From positions 1 to 41,787 of the forward strand of contig CAOJGX010000010.1 of NCBI GenBank assembly GCA_948435735.1: 41,787 nt of DNA. The letters run 5' to 3'. The stretch's first letter is position 1; every line of letters starts with the position of its first letter. This DNA is from an uncultured Clostridium sp. (GTDB taxonomy: Bacteria > Bacillota > Clostridia > TANB77 > CAG-508). Below the pieces are notes generated by a model that saw only the letters and a list, made by a program, of their open reading frames with translations, searched no databases and was not told the DNA's origin. Shown one piece after another: positions 24,300 through 41,651 of the stretch. The translations under genes and the position numbers were made by a program.

Positions 24300-24339
24300 T
24301 GACAATGGGAGAAAAGACTGAAAATGAGTAAAATCAATA

Positions 24340-24446
24340 GAGAGCATATTTTGGCCGATTTGTCAAGTTGACAATTTGGTCAAAATATGATATAATAGAT
24401 AGCGTGTTTTTTTGGAAATAATTTTGAATTATTTCCAATTTTTTAT
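24340..24446 (+). repeat. Promoter-terminator mini-element, copy 1
   Basis: A ~107-base element sharing its whole layout with 41509-41614: GAGAGCATATTTT at the start, palindrome TGTCAAGTTGACA (24361-24373), perfect promoter TTGACA (24368-24373)-17-TATAAT (24391-24396) with TGA extended -10, then AGATAG. About 18 bases later comes a 10-bp stem GGAAATAATT/AATTATTTCC (24414-24423, 24427-24436) and T-run (24439-24444). The predicted transcript is only about 40 nt. It lies between pgi and the S10 operon promoter. Confidence 0.85.
24414..24444 (+). terminator. Terminator inside the mini-element (copy 1)
   Basis: Perfect 10-bp stem, three-base loop TTG, followed by AA and six T. It begins about 18 bases after the -10 box of the element's own promoter and lies before the S10 operon promoter, so it separates the two promoters. 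Confidence 0.85.
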
Positions 24447-24505
24447 GGGAAGGTACTTCAAAAATAAAATTTTTTCCACTAAACCTCAAAATTTTCAAAA
24501 ATCTA

Positions 24506-30950: not shown

Positions 30951-31490
30951 ATGGAAGTACTGAAAGAACAATATAAAACGGAAGTAGTACCAGCCTTGAT
31001 GAAAAAATTTAACTATAAATCAATTATGGAAGTTCCTAAATTAGAAAAAATAGTAATTAATATTGGATTAGGCGAAACCAAAGATAATCCAAAAGCATTA
31101 GACAATGCGGTTAATGATTTGACCATTATTACAGGGCAAAAACCAGTAATAACAAAAGCCAAAAAATCAATTGCTGCTTTTAAGTTAAGAGAGGGAATGA
31201 AAATTGGTTGTAAGGTAACTTTAAGAGCTGGAAAGATGTATGATTTTGCACAAAAATTATTTAATGTTGCTTTACCTAGGGTAAGAGATTTTAGAGGTGT
31301 ATCAAGCCATGCGTTTGATGGTAGAGGAAATTATTCAATGGGAATTAAAGAACAGTTGATTTTCCCAGAGATTGAATACGATAAAATCGACAAAATAAGA
31401 GGTATGGATATTATATTTGTAACAACTGCCAAAACGGATGAAGAAGCAAAAGAGTTGTTATCGTTGTTAGGAATGCCATTCCGAAACTAA
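30951..31490 (+). CDS. rplE: 50S ribosomal protein L5
   Basis: Binds 5S rRNA in the central protuberance. Segments [39 protein letters not shown] and [20 protein letters not shown] are diagnostic; ends [11 protein letters not shown]. Length 179 is normal. AAAGGAGG precedes the ATG. The 94-base spacer after it carries structured element A. Confidence 0.99.
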
Positions 31491-31560
31491 GTTAGATGTT
31501 AGCGAGCTTACAGATAACTTATGCAACGAAGTTGTAAACATTGAAAAGACTACCATGGTC
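31491..31560 (+). other. Structured intergenic element, copy A (rplE-rpsN)
   Basis: Contains the family core GAGC-TTACAGAT-ACTT-AACGAAG (31504-31531), a P1 stem TGT/ACA (31497-31499, 31510-31512) inside GTTA/TAAC (31491-31494, 31515-31518), a P2 hairpin CAAC-GAA-GTTG (31524-31534) and the tail AAAAGACTACCATGG (ending 31558). Copies C and D align over the whole length; copy B over the first part. Confidence 0.55.
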
Positions 31561-31584
31561 TAACTAAAAAGAAAGGAGAAATCA

Positions 31585-31770
31585 ATGGCTAAAAAATCAT
31601 TAAAAGTGAAATGCGCCAGAGAGCAAAAATATAAAACAAGAGCATATAACAGATGTAAAATTTGTGGAAGACCACATGCCTACATCAGAAAATTTGGAAT
31701 TTGTCGTGTTTGCTTTAGAGAATTAGCTCATAAGGGAGAAATTCCTGGAGTAAAAAAAGCAAGCTGGTAA
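31585..31770 (+). CDS. rpsN: 30S ribosomal protein S14, zinc-binding type
   Basis: Short 61-residue S14 (type Z). The zinc site is two CxxC pairs, CKICG and CRVCF (about residues 24-43). Begins [20 protein letters not shown], ends [11 protein letters not shown] as usual. AAAGGAG precedes the ATG. The presence of the zinc form in the operon is standard for Firmicutes. Confidence 0.98.
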
Positions 31771-31831
31771 TGCTAAAGACTGTTCAAGTGTGAGCGAGTT
31801 ACAGTGTCAGTAGCAATACGAAAGTATTGCT
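31771..31831 (+). other. Structured intergenic element, copy B (rpsN-rpsH)
   Basis: Shares GAGCGAGTTACAG (31792-31804) with the family. P1: ACTGT/ACAGT (31779-31783, 31801-31805). P2 is a perfect 8-bp hairpin AGCAATAC-GAAA-GTATTGCT (31812-31831). The tail seen in A, C and D is not recognisable. It is not followed by a T-run, so it is not a terminator. Confidence 0.5.
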
Positions 31832-31864
31832 TCCTATATGAAAAATAAAAAAGGAGGGAAAAAC

Positions 31865-32263
31865 GTGAATACAACGGATCCAATTGCAGATATGTTAACA
31901 AGAATTAGAAATGCCAATAGCAAAAAATTTAAAACAGTTGATGTGCCTGCTTCAAAAATGAAAAAAGCGATTGCAGAAAATTTGCTAGAAGAAGGATATA
32001 TTAAATCTTTTGAAGAGATTGAAAATGAAACACAAGGAATCATTAGAATTACGTTAAAATATGACGAAAAAGGAAATCGAGTAATTGATGGATTAAAAAG
32101 AATTAGTAAACCAGGTTTAAGAATTTATGCACCAAAGGACGAATTACCTAAAGTGTTAAATGGTTTAGGAATTGCCTTGATTTCAACCTCAAAAGGTATT
32201 ATGACGGATAAAAAAGCGCGTGAACTTGGTATCGGTGGCGAGGTTTTAGCGTATATCTGGTAA
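31865..32263 (+). CDS. rpsH: 30S ribosomal protein S8
   Basis: Central-domain 16S-binding protein; it represses the spc operon in E. coli. Segments [40 protein letters not shown] and [20 protein letters not shown] are diagnostic. The GTG at 31865, after AAAGGAGGG, gives 132 residues, the usual length; an ATG at 31838 would include the ribosome binding site in the protein. Confidence 0.98.
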
Positions 32264-32334
32264 ATAAAATAAATTAGAATTCTGAAAAAATATCGATCGA
32301 TAAGTAGATATTAATCTAAGAAAGGAGAAATAAA

Positions 32335-32874
32335 ATGTCAAGAATAGGAAACAAACCAATTACTGTGCCAGATGGTGTAGAGGTAAAATTAGACGGTCAA
32401 CATATTACCGTAAAAGGGCCAAAAGGAACCTTAGAAAGAGACATTCATGAAAACATGAAAGTAACATTAGAAGACAAGGTTTTAAAAGTAGTAAGACCAA
32501 ATGATGAACCAAAAAACAGAAGTTTACATGGTTTAACAAGAACGTTAATTAATAATATGGTAGAAGGAACTACCAATGGTTTTGAAAGAAAATTAGAAAT
32601 CAATGGTGTTGGGTACAGAGCACAAAAGCAAGGGAATAAATTGGTGATGAATTTAGGATATTCACATCCAGTTGAAATGGAAGCACCAGCAGGTATTACA
32701 TTTGACGTACCAAGTCAAAATGAAATCATTGTAAAAGGAATTGACAAAGAATTAGTTGGTCAAACAGCAGCAGTTATCAGAACCAAAAGACCACCAGAAG
32801 TATATCGTGGTAAAGGTATTAAATATGCTGAAGAAATTATTAGACGTAAAGAAGGTAAGGCAGGGAAAAAGTAA
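32335..32874 (+). CDS. rplF: 50S ribosomal protein L6
   Basis: Protein near the factor-binding site. Begins [20 protein letters not shown]; contains [20 protein letters not shown] and the C-terminal [20 protein letters not shown]. Length 179 is normal. AAAGGAG precedes the ATG. Structured element C begins at its stop codon. Confidence 0.99.
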
Positions 32875-32964
32875 GCCGTTAGCGACGTAGGAGCTTTACG
32901 GATTACTTTGTTAACGCAGTGTAACGGAGTTAACTACCTTAGAAAAAGCTACTATGCCTACTTA
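32875..32964 (+). other. Structured intergenic element, copy C (rplF-rplR)
   Basis: Core GAGCTTTACGGATTACTTTG continued by TTAACGCAG (32891-32919) is 26 of 29 identical to copy D. P1 is CCGT/ACGG (32876-32879, 32898-32901), against CTGT/ACAG in B and D: a compensatory change. P2: GTTA/TAAC (32910-32913, 32922-32925) or GTTAAC with GTTAAC (32910-32915, 32929-32934). Tail AGAAAAAGCTACTATGC ends at 32957. The 153-base spacer has no gene. Confidence 0.6.
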
Positions 32965-33027
32965 CTATAAATATGCAAAGTAAAGTTAACTTCAAAAAGT
33001 CCTATAAAAATAGAAAGGAGAACTAAA

Positions 33028-33387
33028 ATGATTACAAAAATCAATCGAAAAGCAGAACGTCAAAGAAGACATAAAAGAGTTCGTACTAAAATCAGTGGAA
33101 CAACAGAAGTTCCAAGACTAGCTGTTTGCAGAACGAACAAGAATATCATTGCACAAATCATTGATGATACAAAAGGTGAAACCCTTGTTTATGTATCAAC
33201 CATGGATCAAGATATTAAAACCAAAAAAGCCAACAAAGAAGCTGCCAAAGAAGTTGGAGCAGCCATTGCCAAAAAAGCTGCAGTCAAAAAAATCGAAAAT
33301 GTAGTTTTTGATCGAGGTGGATTTATTTATCACGGTGTTGTAAAAGAATTAGCAGAAGCAGCACGTGAAGCAGGTTTAAAATTTTAA
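33028..33387 (+). CDS. rplR: 50S ribosomal protein L18
   Basis: 5S rRNA-binding protein of the central protuberance. Segments [40 protein letters not shown] and [20 protein letters not shown] with AREAGLKF at the end. Length 119 is normal. AAAGGAG precedes the ATG. Confidence 0.98.
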
Positions 33388-33407
33388 AAGAAAGGAGAAA
33401 TAAAAAC

Positions 33408-33899
33408 GTGGAAGAAGAAAAATCAGTTGAATTGAAAGAGAAAGTGGTTGCGATTAACAGAGTTGCCAAAGTTGTGAAAGGTGGTAGAACCTTTCGATTT
33501 AGTGCAGTTGTTGTAGTTGGTGATGAAGCTGGTCACATTGGGGTTGGAAATGGTAAAGCTGCCGAAGTTCCAGATGCTATCAAAAAAGCAATTGAAGAAG
33601 CCAAAAAGAACCTAATCACAGTACCAATCGTAGGAACAACCATTCCTCATGAATATATTGGAAGATTTGGTAGTGCTAGAGTTATGCTAAAACCAGGAGC
33701 AGAAGGTTCTGGAATTATTGCTGGTGGTAGTGTAAGACCAGTATTAGAATTAGCAGGATACAAAGACATCAATTCGAAAGTTTTAGGAACGACAAATCCT
33801 AGAAATGTTGTTTATGCTACAATGGAAGCATTAAAAAATATGCAAACAGTAGAAGAAGTTGCTAGAAAAAGAGGAAAGAAAGTTTCTGAAATTTTATAA
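33408..33899 (+). CDS. rpsE: 30S ribosomal protein S5
   Basis: Decoding-fidelity protein. Segments [40 protein letters not shown] and [20 protein letters not shown] are diagnostic. The GTG start at 33408 follows AAAGGAG. Length 163 is normal. In most bacteria rpmD (L30) comes next; here a 121-base non-coding spacer separates it from rplO. Confidence 0.99.
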
Positions 33900-33944
33900 A
33901 ACAAATTTTATAAAATACAACCAAGATGCAAAAACGTAAAATGA

Positions 33945-33996
33945 ATTTTACAAAATTGAATGAATACGCAATTTTGTAAAATCGATTTTACAAAAT
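33945..33996 (+). other. Alternative hairpins where rpmD is expected
   Basis: ATTTTACAAAATTG (33945-33958) pairs perfectly over 14 bp with CAATTTTGTAAAAT (33969-33982). The same middle segment pairs over 12 bp with ATTTTACAAAAT (33985-33996), a perfect palindrome around CG. The two hairpins exclude each other. No T-run follows; the rplO ribosome binding site AAGGAGG lies 12 bases after. The spacer 33900-34020 holds no reading frame for L30. Confidence 0.7.
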
Positions 33997-34020
33997 AATT
34001 TATTTTAAGGAGGTGCAAAA

Positions 34021-34455
34021 ATGGAATTAGGAAATTTACATCCCAATGTTAAAACAAAAACAAAGAAAAGAGTTGGCCGTGGAATCGCTTCTGGGTTAGG
34101 AAAAACTTCTGGTAGAGGTCATAAAGGCCAAAAAGCAAGATCTGGAGGTGGCGTAAGAAGAGGATTTGAAGGTGGTCAAACACCATTATATAGAAGATTA
34201 CCAAAAAGAGGATTTAATCATTTTAATGCAAAAACTTATACAGAAGTAACTTTGAATATGCTAAATAAATCAACCGTTAACGAAGTGACTGCTGAAACCT
34301 TATTAAAAGACGGAATTATTGGTAAAATAAACGATGGAATTGTTGTTTTAGCAACTGGAAAATTAGATAAAAAATTAACCGTAAAAGCAACTAGATTTAC
34401 AAAAGGTGCAACAGAAAAAATCGAAGCTGCTGGTGGAAAATGTGAGGTGGTTTAA
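34021..34455 (+). CDS. rplO: 50S ribosomal protein L15
   Basis: Late-assembly large-subunit protein. The glycine- and arginine-rich extended N-terminus is clear: [40 protein letters not shown]. Length 144 is normal. AAGGAGGTG precedes the ATG. secY starts right after its stop. Confidence 0.98.
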
Positions 34456-35796
34456 TTGTTTAAAACAATACAAAATGCTTTTAAAACACCAGATGTACGC
34501 AAACGATTATTCTATACATTACTTTTAATTGTTGTATTTCGATTTGGCTGTTTCATTACAGTACCTGGAGTAGATACATTTGCTTTAAGGGAAGCTATGG
34601 ATACTTCAACAGGATCCCTTGTAAGTTTAATTGATACGATATCGGGTGGGGCTTTTTCTAATTTGTCAATCTTTGCCATGTCAATTACACCATATATTAC
34701 GGCCTCTATTGTTATTCAATTATTAGCAATGATTATTCCTTCATTAGAGAAGTTAATGAAAGAAGGAGGAGAGACCTCAAGAGCAAAAGTCAATAAGTAC
34801 ACGAAGGTATTAGCTTTAGTATTAGCATTAATTGAAGCAATGGGAATTTTTATATCATATCAATCTTCAGACATATTTAAAACAAGTTTGGCTGATGGTC
34901 CAAGTTTGTTAACAGGTGCACTTGTAGTGATCTCGCTAATTGCTGGTACATCGATTTTGATGTGGCTTGGTGAGCAAATTACCAATAAAGGTGTTGGAAA
35001 TGGTATTTCGATGATTATTTTCATTGGTATCATATCTAGTTTACCTTCTGGCTTAGTCACTTTATGGAACTTAATTGTGACAGAAAGTGGTGTTAATACA
35101 GTTGGAATTGTTACTGCTTTCGTAATTTTGTTAGGAGCGATTCTTTTGGTTGCTGGTGTTGTGTTTGTGCAACAAGCAGAAAGAAAAATACCAGTACAAT
35201 ATGCCAAAAAAGTAGTAGGAAGAAAAATGTATGGTGGTCAAAATACACATATTCCGTTAAAACTAGCAATGGCTGGTGTTATGCCAATCATTTTTGCAAG
35301 TAGTTTTATGACGTTTCCAGCGATGATTATTCAAATTTTTGCTGCAGATAAAATAGGAGGAGCAGGATTTTTAGCAGGTTTATATAAATTCTCAATTGCC
35401 ACATCTTCATCGAGTGTTGGTTGGGGGTATTCACTTGCTAATGCACTTGTGTATTTCTTGTTAATTGTTGGATTTACATTTTTCTACACCTATGCAACGT
35501 TCAATCCAGATGAAGTGGCAACCAATATCAAACAAAATGGTGGATTTATTCCAGGAATCAGAGCAGGTAAACCAACAGCAGATTACTTAAAAAATACACT
35601 TAATAAATTAACTGTTTTTGGAGCTGTATTTTTAAGTTTAATTGCCATTTTACCGATGTTACTTAGATTCTCAAGTTTGAATTTATCTTTTGGTGGAACA
35701 TCTATTTTGATTGTCGTTGGTGTTGCGTTAGAGACAATACAACAACTGGAATCTTTATTAGTTATGAGACATTATAAAGGATTCTTAGAAAAATAA
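34456..35796 (+). CDS. secY: Protein translocase subunit SecY
   Basis: Channel of the Sec translocon. Ten membrane spans; signatures include VFRFGCFITVPGVD, ITPYITASIVIQLLAMIIPS, EGGETSRAKVNKYT, QQAERKIPVQYAKKVVGRKM, and FNPDEVATNIKQNGGFIPGI in the cytoplasmic loops that contact SecA and the ribosome. Length 446 is normal. The TTG start directly follows the rplO stop and has GAGGTGG five bases upstream, so translation is coupled. An inverted REP-like palindrome follows the gene. Confidence 0.98.
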   Translation: MFKTIQNAFKTPDVRKRLFYTLLLIVVFRFGCFITVPGVDTFALREAMDTSTGSLVSLIDTISGGAFSNLSIFAMSITPYITASIVIQLLAMIIPSLEKLMKEGGETSRAKVNKYTKVLALVLALIEAMGIFISYQSSDIFKTSLADGPSLLTGALVVISLIAGTSILMWLGEQITNKGVGNGISMIIFIGIISSLPSGLVTLWNLIVTESGVNTVGIVTAFVILLGAILLVAGVVFVQQAERKIPVQYAKKVVGRKMYGGQNTHIPLKLAMAGVMPIIFASSFMTFPAMIIQIFAADKIGGAGFLAGLYKFSIATSSSSVGWGYSLANALVYFLLIVGFTFFYTYATFNPDEVATNIKQNGGFIPGIRAGKPTADYLKNTLNKLTVFGAVFLSLIAILPMLLRFSSLNLSFGGTSILIVVGVALETIQQLESLLVMRHYKGFLEK

Positions 35797-35808
35797 TTCA
35801 ATTTGTGA

Positions 35809-35833
35809 GGGCGATTTTTTTAGTCGCCCCTAC
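35809..35833 (-). repeat. REP-like palindrome, inverted (copy 4), secY-adk
   Basis: Stem GGGCGATT/AGTCGCCC (35809-35816, 35822-35829; one G-T pair), T5 loop, then CTAC (35830-35833), the complement of GTAG. Same family as 6911 and 26869-26991, inverted. Confidence 0.7.
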
Positions 35834-35902
35834 GAGTTATAAGTTTATAAATAAAATTGATTTAGAATTTGTTTTATTTATGAATTTAAAGGAGGTATCA
35901 AT

Positions 35903-36565
35903 ATGGTTATATTAATGTTAGGTGCTCAAGGCACAGGGAAAGGAACAGTTGCAGGTCTATTGAGTGAAAGTCTTGGCTGGCCACAAATTTCTACAGGTGA
36001 TATTTTTCGAAAAAATATCAAAGAAGAAACGCCGTTAGGGGTGGAAGCAAAAAAATACACAACAAAAGGGGAATTAGTTCCAGATGAAATCACAGTTCCG
36101 ATGGTAGTTGACAGATTAAATGAAAAAGATGCACAAGCAGGAGCCATTCTAGATGGATTTCCACGTAATCTTGCACAAGCAGAAAAGCTAGACGAAATAT
36201 TAGCACAAAAAGGGAAAAAGGTAGATTTAGTCATTAACCTTACGAGTCCTAAAGATGAAATTATTACACGAATTTTAAATCGAAGAGTATGCTCAAACCA
36301 AGCGTGCAAAACAACCTATAATTTGACAATGCACCCACCAAAAGAGCAAGGTATTTGTGATAAATGTGGAGCACAAATTGTTCAAAGGGAAGATGATTGT
36401 GATGAAGCAGCCATTCAAAAAAGATTAGAATTGTATGATGAAAAAACCTTACCTTTAGTAGAATTTTATAGTCAAAAGGGTGTTTTACGTACAGAGGAAA
36501 TTAGTGAAAAAACAGGAAGGCTAGGAAAAGAAGTAGCTGAAGATATCCTACAGGGGATAAAATAA
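35903..36565 (+). CDS. adk: Adenylate kinase, zinc-LID form
   Basis: Converts ATP plus AMP to two ADP. P-loop LGAQGTGKGTVAGLL (about 6-20); AMP site STGDIFRKNI; ILDGFPRNLAQAEKLD; LID domain with four cysteines (VCSNQAC and ICDKCG, about residues 129-155) that should hold zinc, as in Gram-positive adenylate kinases. Length 220 is normal. AAGGAGG precedes the ATG. It lies between secY and map as in many Firmicutes, though here an extra gene separates adk and map. Confidence 0.97.
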   Translation: MVILMLGAQGTGKGTVAGLLSESLGWPQISTGDIFRKNIKEETPLGVEAKKYTTKGELVPDEITVPMVVDRLNEKDAQAGAILDGFPRNLAQAEKLDEILAQKGKKVDLVINLTSPKDEIITRILNRRVCSNQACKTTYNLTMHPPKEQGICDKCGAQIVQREDDCDEAAIQKRLELYDEKTLPLVEFYSQKGVLRTEEISEKTGRLGKEVAEDILQGIK

Positions 36566-36587
36566 TCAATAGTTAGGAGAAGTTTTT

Positions 36588-36980
36588 ATGGAAAGAAATT
36601 ATTCGGATGATGTTCCTAATCGTAAAGAAAAGGAGCAAACGGAAATATTACATCGTATTATGATGGAACGTATAAAAAATGGTGAAGATCCATATAAGGG
36701 GAGTGTAGTAAAATCTAGAAATTATGTTTATCAAAAACAAAATCAGGCTGAAGAAAAAGACAAAACTTTAACCCGTGAAGAAAAGATAAATGAGGTTTTA
36801 GAAAATTTGGAAAAATGTTCTCCTCAATTACAAAAGAAGGTAAATAGCTTAATAGAAGCTCAAAAACAACTAAAAGAAAAAGAGGAAGCTTTGAAAAAGC
36901 AATTATTAGAAGAAGTTTTAAAAATCAATGCTCCTCAAACTAGAGTGGATAAAGATAAAGCAAAAGGTGAAGAAAGATAA
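36588..36980 (+). CDS. Hypothetical coiled-coil protein inserted between adk and map
   Basis: 130 residues, not recognised. Very charged, no membrane segment. Residues 80-115 form a clear coiled coil (EAQKQLKEKEEALKKQLLEE), and the start is polar and probably disordered. TTAGGAGA precedes the ATG. It lies 22 bases after adk and 12 before map in an operon whose gene order is otherwise strongly conserved, so it is an insertion specific to this lineage or a rapidly evolving gene. Composition and codon use are like the neighbours; no sign of transfer. Confidence 0.75.
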   Translation: MERNYSDDVPNRKEKEQTEILHRIMMERIKNGEDPYKGSVVKSRNYVYQKQNQAEEKDKTLTREEKINEVLENLEKCSPQLQKKVNSLIEAQKQLKEKEEALKKQLLEEVLKINAPQTRVDKDKAKGEER

Positions 36981-36992
36981 GGGAGAAGTAAA

Positions 36993-37763
36993 TTGGTTAG
37001 CATAAAATCGGATCGAGAAATTGAATTGATGATGGAAGCTTGCAAAATTACAGCTGAAACGCATGAGATGCTAGAAAAGAATATAAAACCAGGGATATCT
37101 ACCTATGATTTAGATAAAATGGCAGAACAATTTATCAAGTCAAAAGGTGCAGTTCCAGCCCAAAAAGGTTATCCAAGTGGTGAAAAAGGCGTGCCGGATT
37201 TTCCATCAACATTATGTATATCCATCAATGATGAAGTAATCCATGGTGTTCCGAGTAAAAGGGCAATCATCCAAGATGGAGATATAGTAAGTATTGATTT
37301 AGTTGTACAAAAAAATGGTTTTCATGGAGATGCTGCTCGAACGCATTTAGTTGGCAATGTTTCAGAGGAAGCTAGAAAATTAGTCGAAGTTACCAAACAA
37401 GCATTTTTTGAAGGAATTAAATTTGCCAAAGAAGGAAATCGAGTGGGCGACATTTCATTTGCTATTCAGGAATATGTAAAAAAATTTGGTTATTCTGTTG
37501 TTCGCGAATTTCAAGGACATGGAATTGGAAGAGAAATGCATGAAGATCCGGGAATTCCTAATTATGGCAAAAAAGGCAAAGGAATGCGTCTGCAAAAAGG
37601 CATGACGCTTGCTGTTGAGCCGATGGTCATTCAAAGACAACCAGATATTTTTGAATTAGAAGATGGTTGGACGATTGTCACAGAAGATGGTAGTTTAGCA
37701 GCCCATTATGAAAATACAATTTTAATTACAGAAAAAGAAGCAAAAGTATTGACAATCATCTAA
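36993..37763 (+). CDS. map: Methionine aminopeptidase, type I
   Basis: Removes the initiator methionine from new proteins. Metal ligands and motifs: CISINDEVIHGVPSKR, VSIDLVVQKNGFHGDAARTH (two Asp), FQGHGIGREMHEDPGIPNYG (His), AVEPMV (Glu) and DGSLAAHYENTILITE (Glu). Length 256 is normal. The TTG start follows AAGGGAGAAG. Its last codons contain the -35 box of the internal promoter for infA. Confidence 0.97.
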   Translation: MVSIKSDREIELMMEACKITAETHEMLEKNIKPGISTYDLDKMAEQFIKSKGAVPAQKGYPSGEKGVPDFPSTLCISINDEVIHGVPSKRAIIQDGDIVSIDLVVQKNGFHGDAARTHLVGNVSEEARKLVEVTKQAFFEGIKFAKEGNRVGDISFAIQEYVKKFGYSVVREFQGHGIGREMHEDPGIPNYGKKGKGMRLQKGMTLAVEPMVIQRQPDIFELEDGWTIVTEDGSLAAHYENTILITEKEAKVLTII

Positions 37764-37777
37764 AAATGTTATATACT
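37749..37777 (+). promoter_or_regulatory. Internal promoter for infA-rplQ
   Basis: TTGACA (37749-37754, inside the end of map), 17-base spacer, TATACT (37772-37777). It lies 58 bases before infA and would let the alpha-operon part be transcribed independently of the S10 promoter. Confidence 0.75.
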
Positions 37778-37835
37778 ATAAAAGCTTAATTAGAAAAACA
37801 ATCAAATAAAACCTTAAATTTAGGAGGAAAATAGC

Positions 37836-38054
37836 TTGTCGAAAGAGGATGTTATCGAAGTTGAGGGAATTGTTGTTGAAACATTACCCAATACAAATTT
37901 TAAAGTAGAGTTAGAAAATGGCCACCAAGTATTAGCTCATATTTCTGGAAAATTAAGAATGAATTATATCAAAATTCTTCCAGGAGATAAAGTAAAATTA
38001 GAATTGTCTCCTTATGATTTAAGCAAGGGAAGAATTACATGGAGAGCGAAATAA
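37836..38054 (+). CDS. infA: Translation initiation factor IF-1
   Basis: OB-fold factor occupying the 30S A-site during initiation. [40 protein letters not shown] and [20 protein letters not shown] are diagnostic. 72 residues, normal. The TTG start follows TAGGAGG. Structured element D begins at its stop. Confidence 0.98.
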
Positions 38055-38142
38055 AGTAAGCTGTTCACGAGGAACGAGCGTTACAGATTACTTTGTTAAC
38101 GTAGCAAAGAGGAGATAACTTCATTAAAAAAACTACTTTGCA
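38055..38142 (+). other. Structured intergenic element, copy D (infA-rpmJ)
   Basis: Core GAGCGTTACAGATTACTTTG plus TTAACGTAG (38076-38104). P1 CTGT/ACAG (38061-38064, 38083-38086) or, alternatively, GTAA/TTAC (38056-38059, 38081-38084) with inner GTTC-ACGAG-GAAC. P2 CTTTG/CAAAG (38091-38095, 38105-38109). Tail TTAAAAAAACTACTTTGC ends at 38141. A further small hairpin GCAAC-CAA-GTTGC lies at 38166-38178. The 161-base spacer has no gene. Confidence 0.6.
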
Positions 38143-41484: not shown

Positions 41485-41508
41485 ACAAGAAATTCAGTAA
41501 AAACAACT

Positions 41509-41614
41509 GAGAGCATATTTTTATAATTCTGTCAAGTTGACAAAATTATGAAAATGTGGTATAATAGATAGGTAAATTTTGCGGAAATAATGTTAAATTA
41601 TTTCCGTTTTTTCA
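41509..41614 (+). repeat. Promoter-terminator mini-element, copy 2
   Basis: Same order as copy 1: GAGAGCATATTTTT, palindrome TGTCAAGTTGACA (41530-41542), TTGACA (41537-41542)-17-TATAAT (41560-41565) with TGG extended -10, AGATAG, then a 10-bp stem CGGAAATAAT/ATTATTTCCG (41582-41591, 41597-41606) and six T (41607-41612). Predicted transcript about 40 nt. Confidence 0.85.
41582..41612 (+). terminator. Terminator inside the mini-element (copy 2)
   Basis: Perfect 10-bp stem, loop GTTAA, six T. The outer C-G pair is absent in copy 1. Confidence 0.85.
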
Positions 41615-41651
41615 TGTCAATATTACATTTTTATTACATTTTTCAAAACTA

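Follow-up and report, generated by a model that had tools for sequence, protein, structure and literature searches.

A patchily distributed two-hairpin repeat with compensatory base pairing in ribosomal protein operons of an uncultured Clostridium and its relatives

Contig CAOJGX010000010.1 of an uncultured Clostridium sp. (assembly GCA_948435735.1; 41,787 nt, hereafter the window) carries genes of the S10-spc-alpha ribosomal protein (r-protein) cluster. An initial annotation of this DNA described related structured elements in four of its spacers, rplE-rpsN, rpsN-rpsH, rplF-rplR and infA-rpmJ (copies A to D), and read them as a functional RNA, possibly a processing or protein-binding site, repeated inside one operon. 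The positions and sequences reported for the four sites were confirmed. It is well supported that they belong to a patchy interspersed repeat family, not to an element specific to the spc operon.

To lessen circularity, the window was searched with a covariance model (R3) trained on 74 copies that come from other genomes, with the window and all G000 loci left out; R3 is only partly independent, since orthologues of B, C and D are among these copies and the alignment of its rows relied on a model (R1) whose seed contained the window copies. At E<=1 the search returned exactly the four reported sites and nothing else: copy A at 31487..31548 (44.7 bits, E 7e-7), copy B at 31774..31843 (40.6 bits, E 5e-6), copy C at 32867..32946 (79.2 bits, E 4e-14) and copy D at 38052..38131 (78.0 bits, E 7e-14), all on the plus strand. 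Copies C and D agree at 26 of 29 positions, as had been noticed, and none of 200 dinucleotide shuffles reached this value (maximum 20). None of the other five pairs exceeded 20 of 29; the likeness of A to C (20/29, reached by 5 of 200 shuffles) and of B to D (19/29, reached by 29 of 200) is at or near chance, so that it takes structural scoring to recognise A and B. A search for the shared 15-mer as a pattern, with up to three mismatches allowed, found 142 places, and the reversed control 143; this short sequence alone is therefore useless for finding copies.

The pairing scheme first proposed for these copies lacked a strongly covarying outer helix, P0, which is AAAGTAA/TTACTTT in copies C and D and TAAGTTA/TAACTTA in copy A. 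In copy A, P0 (31488-31494/31515-31521) takes in the rplE stop codon (31488-31490) and is followed by P1 (31496-31499/31510-31513; ATGT/ACAG, with its outer pair broken) and P2 (31522-31527/31531-31536). Copy B has a degraded P0, which is CTGA/TCAG in its orthologues, together with P1 (CTGT 31780-31783, ACAG 31801-31804) and a P2 (31812-31819/31824-31831) closed by a GAAA loop. Copy C comprises P0 (32868-32874/32903-32909), within which lies the rplF stop codon (32872-32874), P1 (CCGT 32876-32879, ACGG 32898-32901), P2 (GTTAAC 32910-32915, pairing with 32929-32934) and an A-rich tail at 32935-32946 on the plus strand. Copy D begins at the infA stop codon (38052-38054) and has P0 (38053-38059/38088-38094), P1 (CTGT 38061-38064, ACAG 38083-38086), P2 (GTTA 38095-38098, TAAC 38116-38119) and then an A-rich tail. 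The alternation of P1 between CTGT/ACAG and CCGT/ACGG had been assigned correctly. The CTTTG/CAAAG stem given as P2 of D, however, uses bases of P0'; the family alignment places GTTA/TAAC here in both C and D, against the single-sequence minimum-energy fold of D, which does contain CTTTG/CAAAG. The shared tail proved real, CTACTATG following copy C and recurring exactly in five other copies, and it lies outside all of the covariance models.

Across the family, the element is a two-hairpin unit of about 75-85 nt which reads, from 5' to 3', P0, a G.A mismatch, P1, a U.U position, the hairpin tip, 2-3 nt, the P2 hairpin and the tail UUCMUUARAAAA. P0 consists of 6-7 bp, typically UAAGUUA/UAACUUA, with the variants AAGAUA/UAUCUU, AAGUCA/UGACUU, AAGCUA/UAGCUU and CUGA/UCAG; the conserved G.A mismatch that follows it becomes a pair in the CUGA type. 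P1 is CYGU/ACRG. The tip carries paired GA/GA motifs beside a 2-3 bp stem and a small loop, and occurs in two forms: type I, UYGA-GC-NNN(N)-GC-GARUU, where GC/GC interchanges with AC/GU and GU/AC and Y-R is mostly C-G or U-A, and type II, NGC-GA-loop-GA-GCN. A crude script divided the 89 copies scoring at least 38 bits into 50 of type I, 24 of type II and 15 of neither. The sequence of P2 varies among copies.

Structure is maintained across copies. When 19 copies, taken from the window and from related loci, were aligned, 90.4% of cells were paired, with changes on both sides in 13 of 17 pairs, compared with 26-51% pairing in slid controls. An alignment of 96 copies, itself fitted to the model, gave 92.7% of cells paired, double changes in 16 of 17 pairs and a covariation score of 0.611, against at most 0.101 when slid. 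Pairing is also compensated within single orthologous sites. At infA-rpmJ, the CTGT/ACAG of P1 in the window is replaced by CCGT/ACGG in L010 and L014, a compensated change; P1 is TTGT/ACAG in L009 and partly broken in L012. Orthologues at rplF-rplR have AGC/GCT, CGC/GCG or AAC/GTT as their inner stem; P2 shows a T-A to C-G change there and has been rebuilt in L151. Full compensation is absent at this site from L011 (CCAT/ACGG) and from L010, where A.G stands at the outermost position of the inner stem.

The covariance search of relatives that the initial annotation had called for (R1, E<=0.01) yielded 115 matches in 18 of 40 congeneric genomes; 10 of these fall short of 33 bits and may in part be chance matches. 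A search of 143 genomes of the order (model R2) found matches in 27, 26 of which, the genome under study included, belong to the same taxonomic family, the share of members outside that family among the 143 being only partly listed. In the class, 2 of 148 genomes had matches, one of them again this genome. Matches beyond the taxonomic family are rare; the order and class searches applied stricter filters, by which weak copies may be lost. Carrying genomes hold 1-27 matches each. With R3 at E<=0.1, the genome under study has ten: the four window sites, one each at grpE-dnaK (contig C7), rplA-rplJ (C30) and rnhB-pyrimidine phosphorylase (C39), and three weaker ones.

Specificity for the spc/alpha operon, or for a single r-protein, was not supported, as just 29 of the 115 congeneric matches fall in the S10-spc-alpha cluster (five of them placed via matching contigs of L009 and L012). 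Gene names beyond the window are readings of translated neighbours, not database assignments. Read in this way, other junctions are rpsG-fusA in four genomes, rplA-rplJ in three and hrcA-grpE-dnaK in five, and further neighbours include dnaK, fusA, murJ, mnmE, der, spoVT, MATE transporters and tRNAs; in G330 a copy (L339, G330:C1:163653) starts at the groES stop codon of a groES-groEL junction. Of the 23 matches in G124, which belongs to another genus, 9 are in the S10-spc-alpha cluster, and one of these 9 is antisense. A regular sample of 240 kb from G029 contained six strong matches and one weak, all known beforehand, four of the seven being in a single 20-kb piece, that with the spc operon.

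Over the window and 80 related loci, the element occupies rpsN-rpsH in 8 of 80, rplF-rplR in 7 of 81, infA-rpsM in 6 of 63 (directly after infA in 5 of 63) and rplB-rpsS in 3 of 67. The rplE-rpsN spacer is filled in 1 of the 77 loci that have it, namely the window itself. Counting that spacer, six further operon junctions are occupied in one or two loci each, and one copy lies at a contig edge before rpsN. This tally places 36 of 41 matches, the unplaced ones being four with E>0.05 and one minus-strand match at a locus edge. Positions within the operon thus vary between species. Over-representation in ribosomal, elongation-factor and chaperone operons is shown, with some seed bias. A spread of hits through all intergenic regions had been named as a sign of a mobile repeat; the repeat is indeed dispersed, but it is biased towards the sense strand and has many copies in translation and chaperone operons.

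Gene context was read for 102 of the 115 congeneric matches, the 13 without a neighbourhood being left out. Neighbours were open reading frames (ORFs) called mechanically with a minimum of 55 codons, which puts some copies in the wrong orientation class; one infA copy, for example, appears convergent because rpmJ is too short for ORF calling. Between co-directional genes 63 records are sense and 12 antisense. Another 12 precede a gene whose sense they share, the other neighbour being divergent, 8 follow a gene in its sense and have a convergent gene on the other side, and 7 have a neighbour on one side only. Collapsing orthologues leaves 63 sites, with 34 in sense against 9 in antisense orientation (p=1.7e-4). 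The model start falls between -9 and +5 nt from the upstream stop codon in 41 of 71 records and 19 of 40 distinct sites, and in about half of the copies P0 lies at or across that codon.

The family has spread as a non-autonomous repeat, as seen in the many sites per genome, patchy occurrence, empty sites, tandem units, recent amplification and tRNA insertions with duplications. At ten loci in eight genomes, a copy of the 5' end of a tRNA is followed by the element and then by the intact tRNA: tRNA-Thr in G029, G330 and G033, tRNA-Leu in G013, G056, G057 and twice in G005, and tRNA-Gln in G034 and G013. The 5'-end copy stops in the D-arm at nine of these loci and after the acceptor strand in G057. 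The duplications measure 22-23 nt in G029, 21 in G034, an exact 20 in G056, 16 at the Leu locus of G013 and 13, with one mismatch, in G057; by eye, they exceed 15 nt at both G005 loci and in G330 (one mismatch) and have decayed at the Gln locus of G013 and in the first G033 unit. One such site lies downstream of a sigma-factor gene, for which 30 loci were retrieved, 19 scanned and 11 found readable: nine have a single tRNA without the element, and G029 and G033 are filled, the latter twice in tandem. For a repeat to enter tRNA genes again and again while the tRNA is regenerated is unusual in its own right.

Scanning the flanks of 102 copies for duplications gave a score of at least 12 in five, compared with about 1% of shuffled pairings. 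The top four (score >=16) are all at tRNAs; the fifth, rplW-rplB in G056, is weak (score 13), and G057 is a fifth tRNA site (score 10.5). No convincing flanking duplication was found at non-tRNA sites among the 102 copies. In G174, which has 27 matches, 15 of 21 fetched copies sit within a longer near-identical repeat, and the 21 divide into 8 sense, 6 antisense and 7 other. Most copies of the recently amplified repeat of L250-L269 in this genome carry TTTTTTA at either end, and the repeat contains several nested hairpins, the element among them; no duplication was evident there by eye. Tandem partial copies in r-protein spacers of L198 (G033) and L270 (G124:C3) resemble BOX module arrays. The same hairpin tip also occurs in a GC-rich repeat starting CCACCAGCGAGGCTCTCGTGGGGACC, in at least five places and four genomes (L340, L342, L344, L346 and L347). 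The hairpin is therefore a module common to several repeats.

We favour, at roughly even confidence, the view that this is a structured repeat of mobile origin, comparable to repetitive extragenic palindromic (REP) and BOX elements, which has been retained between cistrons as an mRNA hairpin module that would influence decay or termination where genes meet. That it is a repeat family is firm; the mRNA function is what we infer. Once translation has terminated and the ribosome has left, the hairpins would fold in the mRNA and could behave like a REP element between cistrons, either as a barrier to 3'-5' exonucleases or by fixing where the transcript is cleaved, and would in this way adjust the stability and translation of the two flanking genes relative to each other. 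A role at the mRNA level is favoured because of the strand bias, the position at stop codons, the choice of operons and the compensation at single sites. Of the functional RNA first proposed, the family with its compensatory changes is real, and the function is a proposed reading of these patterns.

Several observations weigh against such a role. The 22 of 40 congeneric genomes without a match at E<=0.01 show that no function is essential. Twelve of the 102 records are antisense between co-directional genes, and the share of copies in the spc operon is inflated because the seeds were drawn from it. An enrichment of co-directional gene pairs was considered and rejected, as gene-pair classes follow background (74 of 93 gaps of at least 60 nt are co-directional). 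Template switching in DNA can also maintain inverted repeats. Single copies fold only moderately better than shuffles (z -2.0, -3.4, -1.7 and -2.5 for A to D); folded in this way, C takes up the consensus, A forms P0 and P2, B forms P2 and D adopts another structure. The loops, by contrast, speak in favour: GNRA is over-represented in P2, making up 11 of 26 four-base loops with its reverse complement in 1; in 81 operon loci it accounts for 34 of 562 intergenic (element excluded) and 143 of 3094 coding four-base hairpin loops, with ratios to the reverse complement of 34:16 and 143:32. The strand asymmetry is partly a general purine bias and by itself proves little, because the sense strand of the operons is 62% purine and GNRA is in excess elsewhere too. 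A count of GA-tipped hairpins (14 sense and 1 antisense in spacers; 31 in total against a shuffled mean of 26.6 for one strand) was dropped as support, since coding sequence (15 and 1) and shuffles behave alike. Both are minor supports, and our confidence in the mRNA reading was left as it was.

A serious rival, possible but distinctly less probable, is a purely selfish small repeat without host function, as has been argued for BOX, RUP and SPRITE, whose pattern would reflect where insertion is tolerated. The patchy presence at 1-27 matches per carrying genome, the recent amplification in G174 in both orientations, the tandem units in G033 and G124 and the tRNA insertions all speak for it. Set against this are the sense bias, the clustering at stop codons, the many copies in essential operons and the compensation at orthologous sites; moreover BOX, RUP and SPRITE are over-represented between convergent genes and favour no functional class (PMC3049150).

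It is improbable that the element consists of DNA hairpins recognised by a Y1 transposase (IS200/IS605 or RAYT), like REP/REPIN or PATE ends. The hairpins are paired and conserved, and Y1 transposases occur in the genus, with 4 matches in the genome under study. However, Y1_Tnp is present in 12 of the 18 carriers as well as in 10 of the 22 genomes that lack matches; it is absent from G005, G020 and G033, which have 8-9 matches each, and P2 differs widely between copies. The tRNA-site duplications also sit badly with this class, from which they would not be expected.

More speculatively, and with slight probability, the repeat might be a bacterial short interspersed element (SINE) spreading via its own transcript: it would insert into transcribed units on their sense strand, including the 5' half of tRNA genes (mostly the D-arm), where a 13-23 nt duplication would regenerate the tRNA, and its RNA fold, with the tip common to larger repeats, would be a handle for common machinery, secondarily used by the host for mRNA stability at r-protein junctions. 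We give little credence to the idea of a SINE-like element retrotransposed by target-primed reverse transcription. The mostly sense-strand insertions in transcripts, the A-rich 3' end and the variable length of the tRNA-gene duplications (about 13-23 nt) agree with it; strong flanking repeats are confined to 4 of 102 copies, all at tRNA sites.

A feedback site of the spc/alpha operon, bound by an r-protein or another protein, is unlikely and is largely refuted by the genome-wide distribution. Four copies do stand in one operon, and a precedent exists in which an element inside an r-protein operon controls the genes upstream of it (PMC2864571), but the same fold stands beside dnaK, murJ, mnmE, der, spoVT and tRNAs, and the operon positions shift between species. 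Intrinsic terminators or attenuators are scarcely credible: hairpins do follow stop codons, some between convergent genes, but the tract after P2 is A-rich and not U-rich (column counts over 96 aligned copies), and the elements lie inside essential operons. A DDE-type miniature inverted-repeat transposable element was rejected, as its fixed-length target duplication is contradicted by the variable lengths at tRNA sites and the absence of convincing duplications elsewhere.

To return to the REP/BOX-like module that we prefer, its likeness to known systems is partial. Like REPs, it is a short, structured, palindromic intergenic repeat in many copies near upstream stop codons; a portion of Escherichia coli REPs lie within 15 nt of the upstream stop and are reported to lower translation (PMC12306157). 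In contrast to the thousands in E. coli (PMC12306157), carrying genomes here have the low number of 1-27 matches, and the two-hairpin unit, the conserved internal-loop tip, the sense bias and the lack of a clear Y1 transposase link set it apart by description. BOX elements of Streptococcus pneumoniae are modular structured repeats with tandem variation, low mobility and lineage restriction, some of them expressed (PMC3049150). Compared by description only, the present family shares the modular and tandem behaviour and the lineage restriction, and differs in its sense bias and its many copies in translation and chaperone operons. The L17 downstream element is likewise a structured RNA candidate 3' of an r-protein gene (PMC2864571), but in one gene context. 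The 'mobile/repeat sequence candidates' of the GC-IGR survey are multi-copy structured motifs judged selfish (PMC11109978), partly via association with transposase genes; this comparison, too, is by description only.

The statement that no equivalent had been described was borne out within the sources searched. Rfam 15 gave no family at gathering score in the window and tRNA alone in six further loci; at a relaxed E-value the sole match in window positions 31400-33050 was osmY (E 3.1), a chance match. Open-access literature searches, with supplementary tables outside their scope, did not find the element described; candidate motifs of Fremin and Bhatt 2021 (PMC8040213) or of other surveys may be identical. 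Small interspersed repeats are often taken as parasites; this one shows clear covariation, sense-strand placement, frequent stop-codon positions and a presence in ribosomal and chaperone operons. Its gain, decay and loss can be traced site by site over many species, and the family makes it testable when a mobile repeat turns into mRNA control.

Other repeats occur in and near the operon. A second dispersed repeat, 76% identical between window positions 24320-24447, upstream of the S10 operon, and 41489-41616, after rplQ, contains the palindrome TGTCAAGTTGACA, a TATAAT box and a hairpin, and looks like a shared promoter/operator module. It has 21 matches in the genome under study, 12-19 in each of G005, G013 and G020 and 0-2 in the other 17 of 21 genomes. 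Finally, the spc spacers of several relatives (L025, L029, L033, L036, L038, L039, L040 and L044) hold other repeat families, including a palindromic element, roughly 130 nt long, whose end resembles CTAGCAATACTCGTTTCTAATTAATTTTA, as well as GGGGACA repeats and runs of AGAAGTTAGAGGTTGGAAGTTAG.

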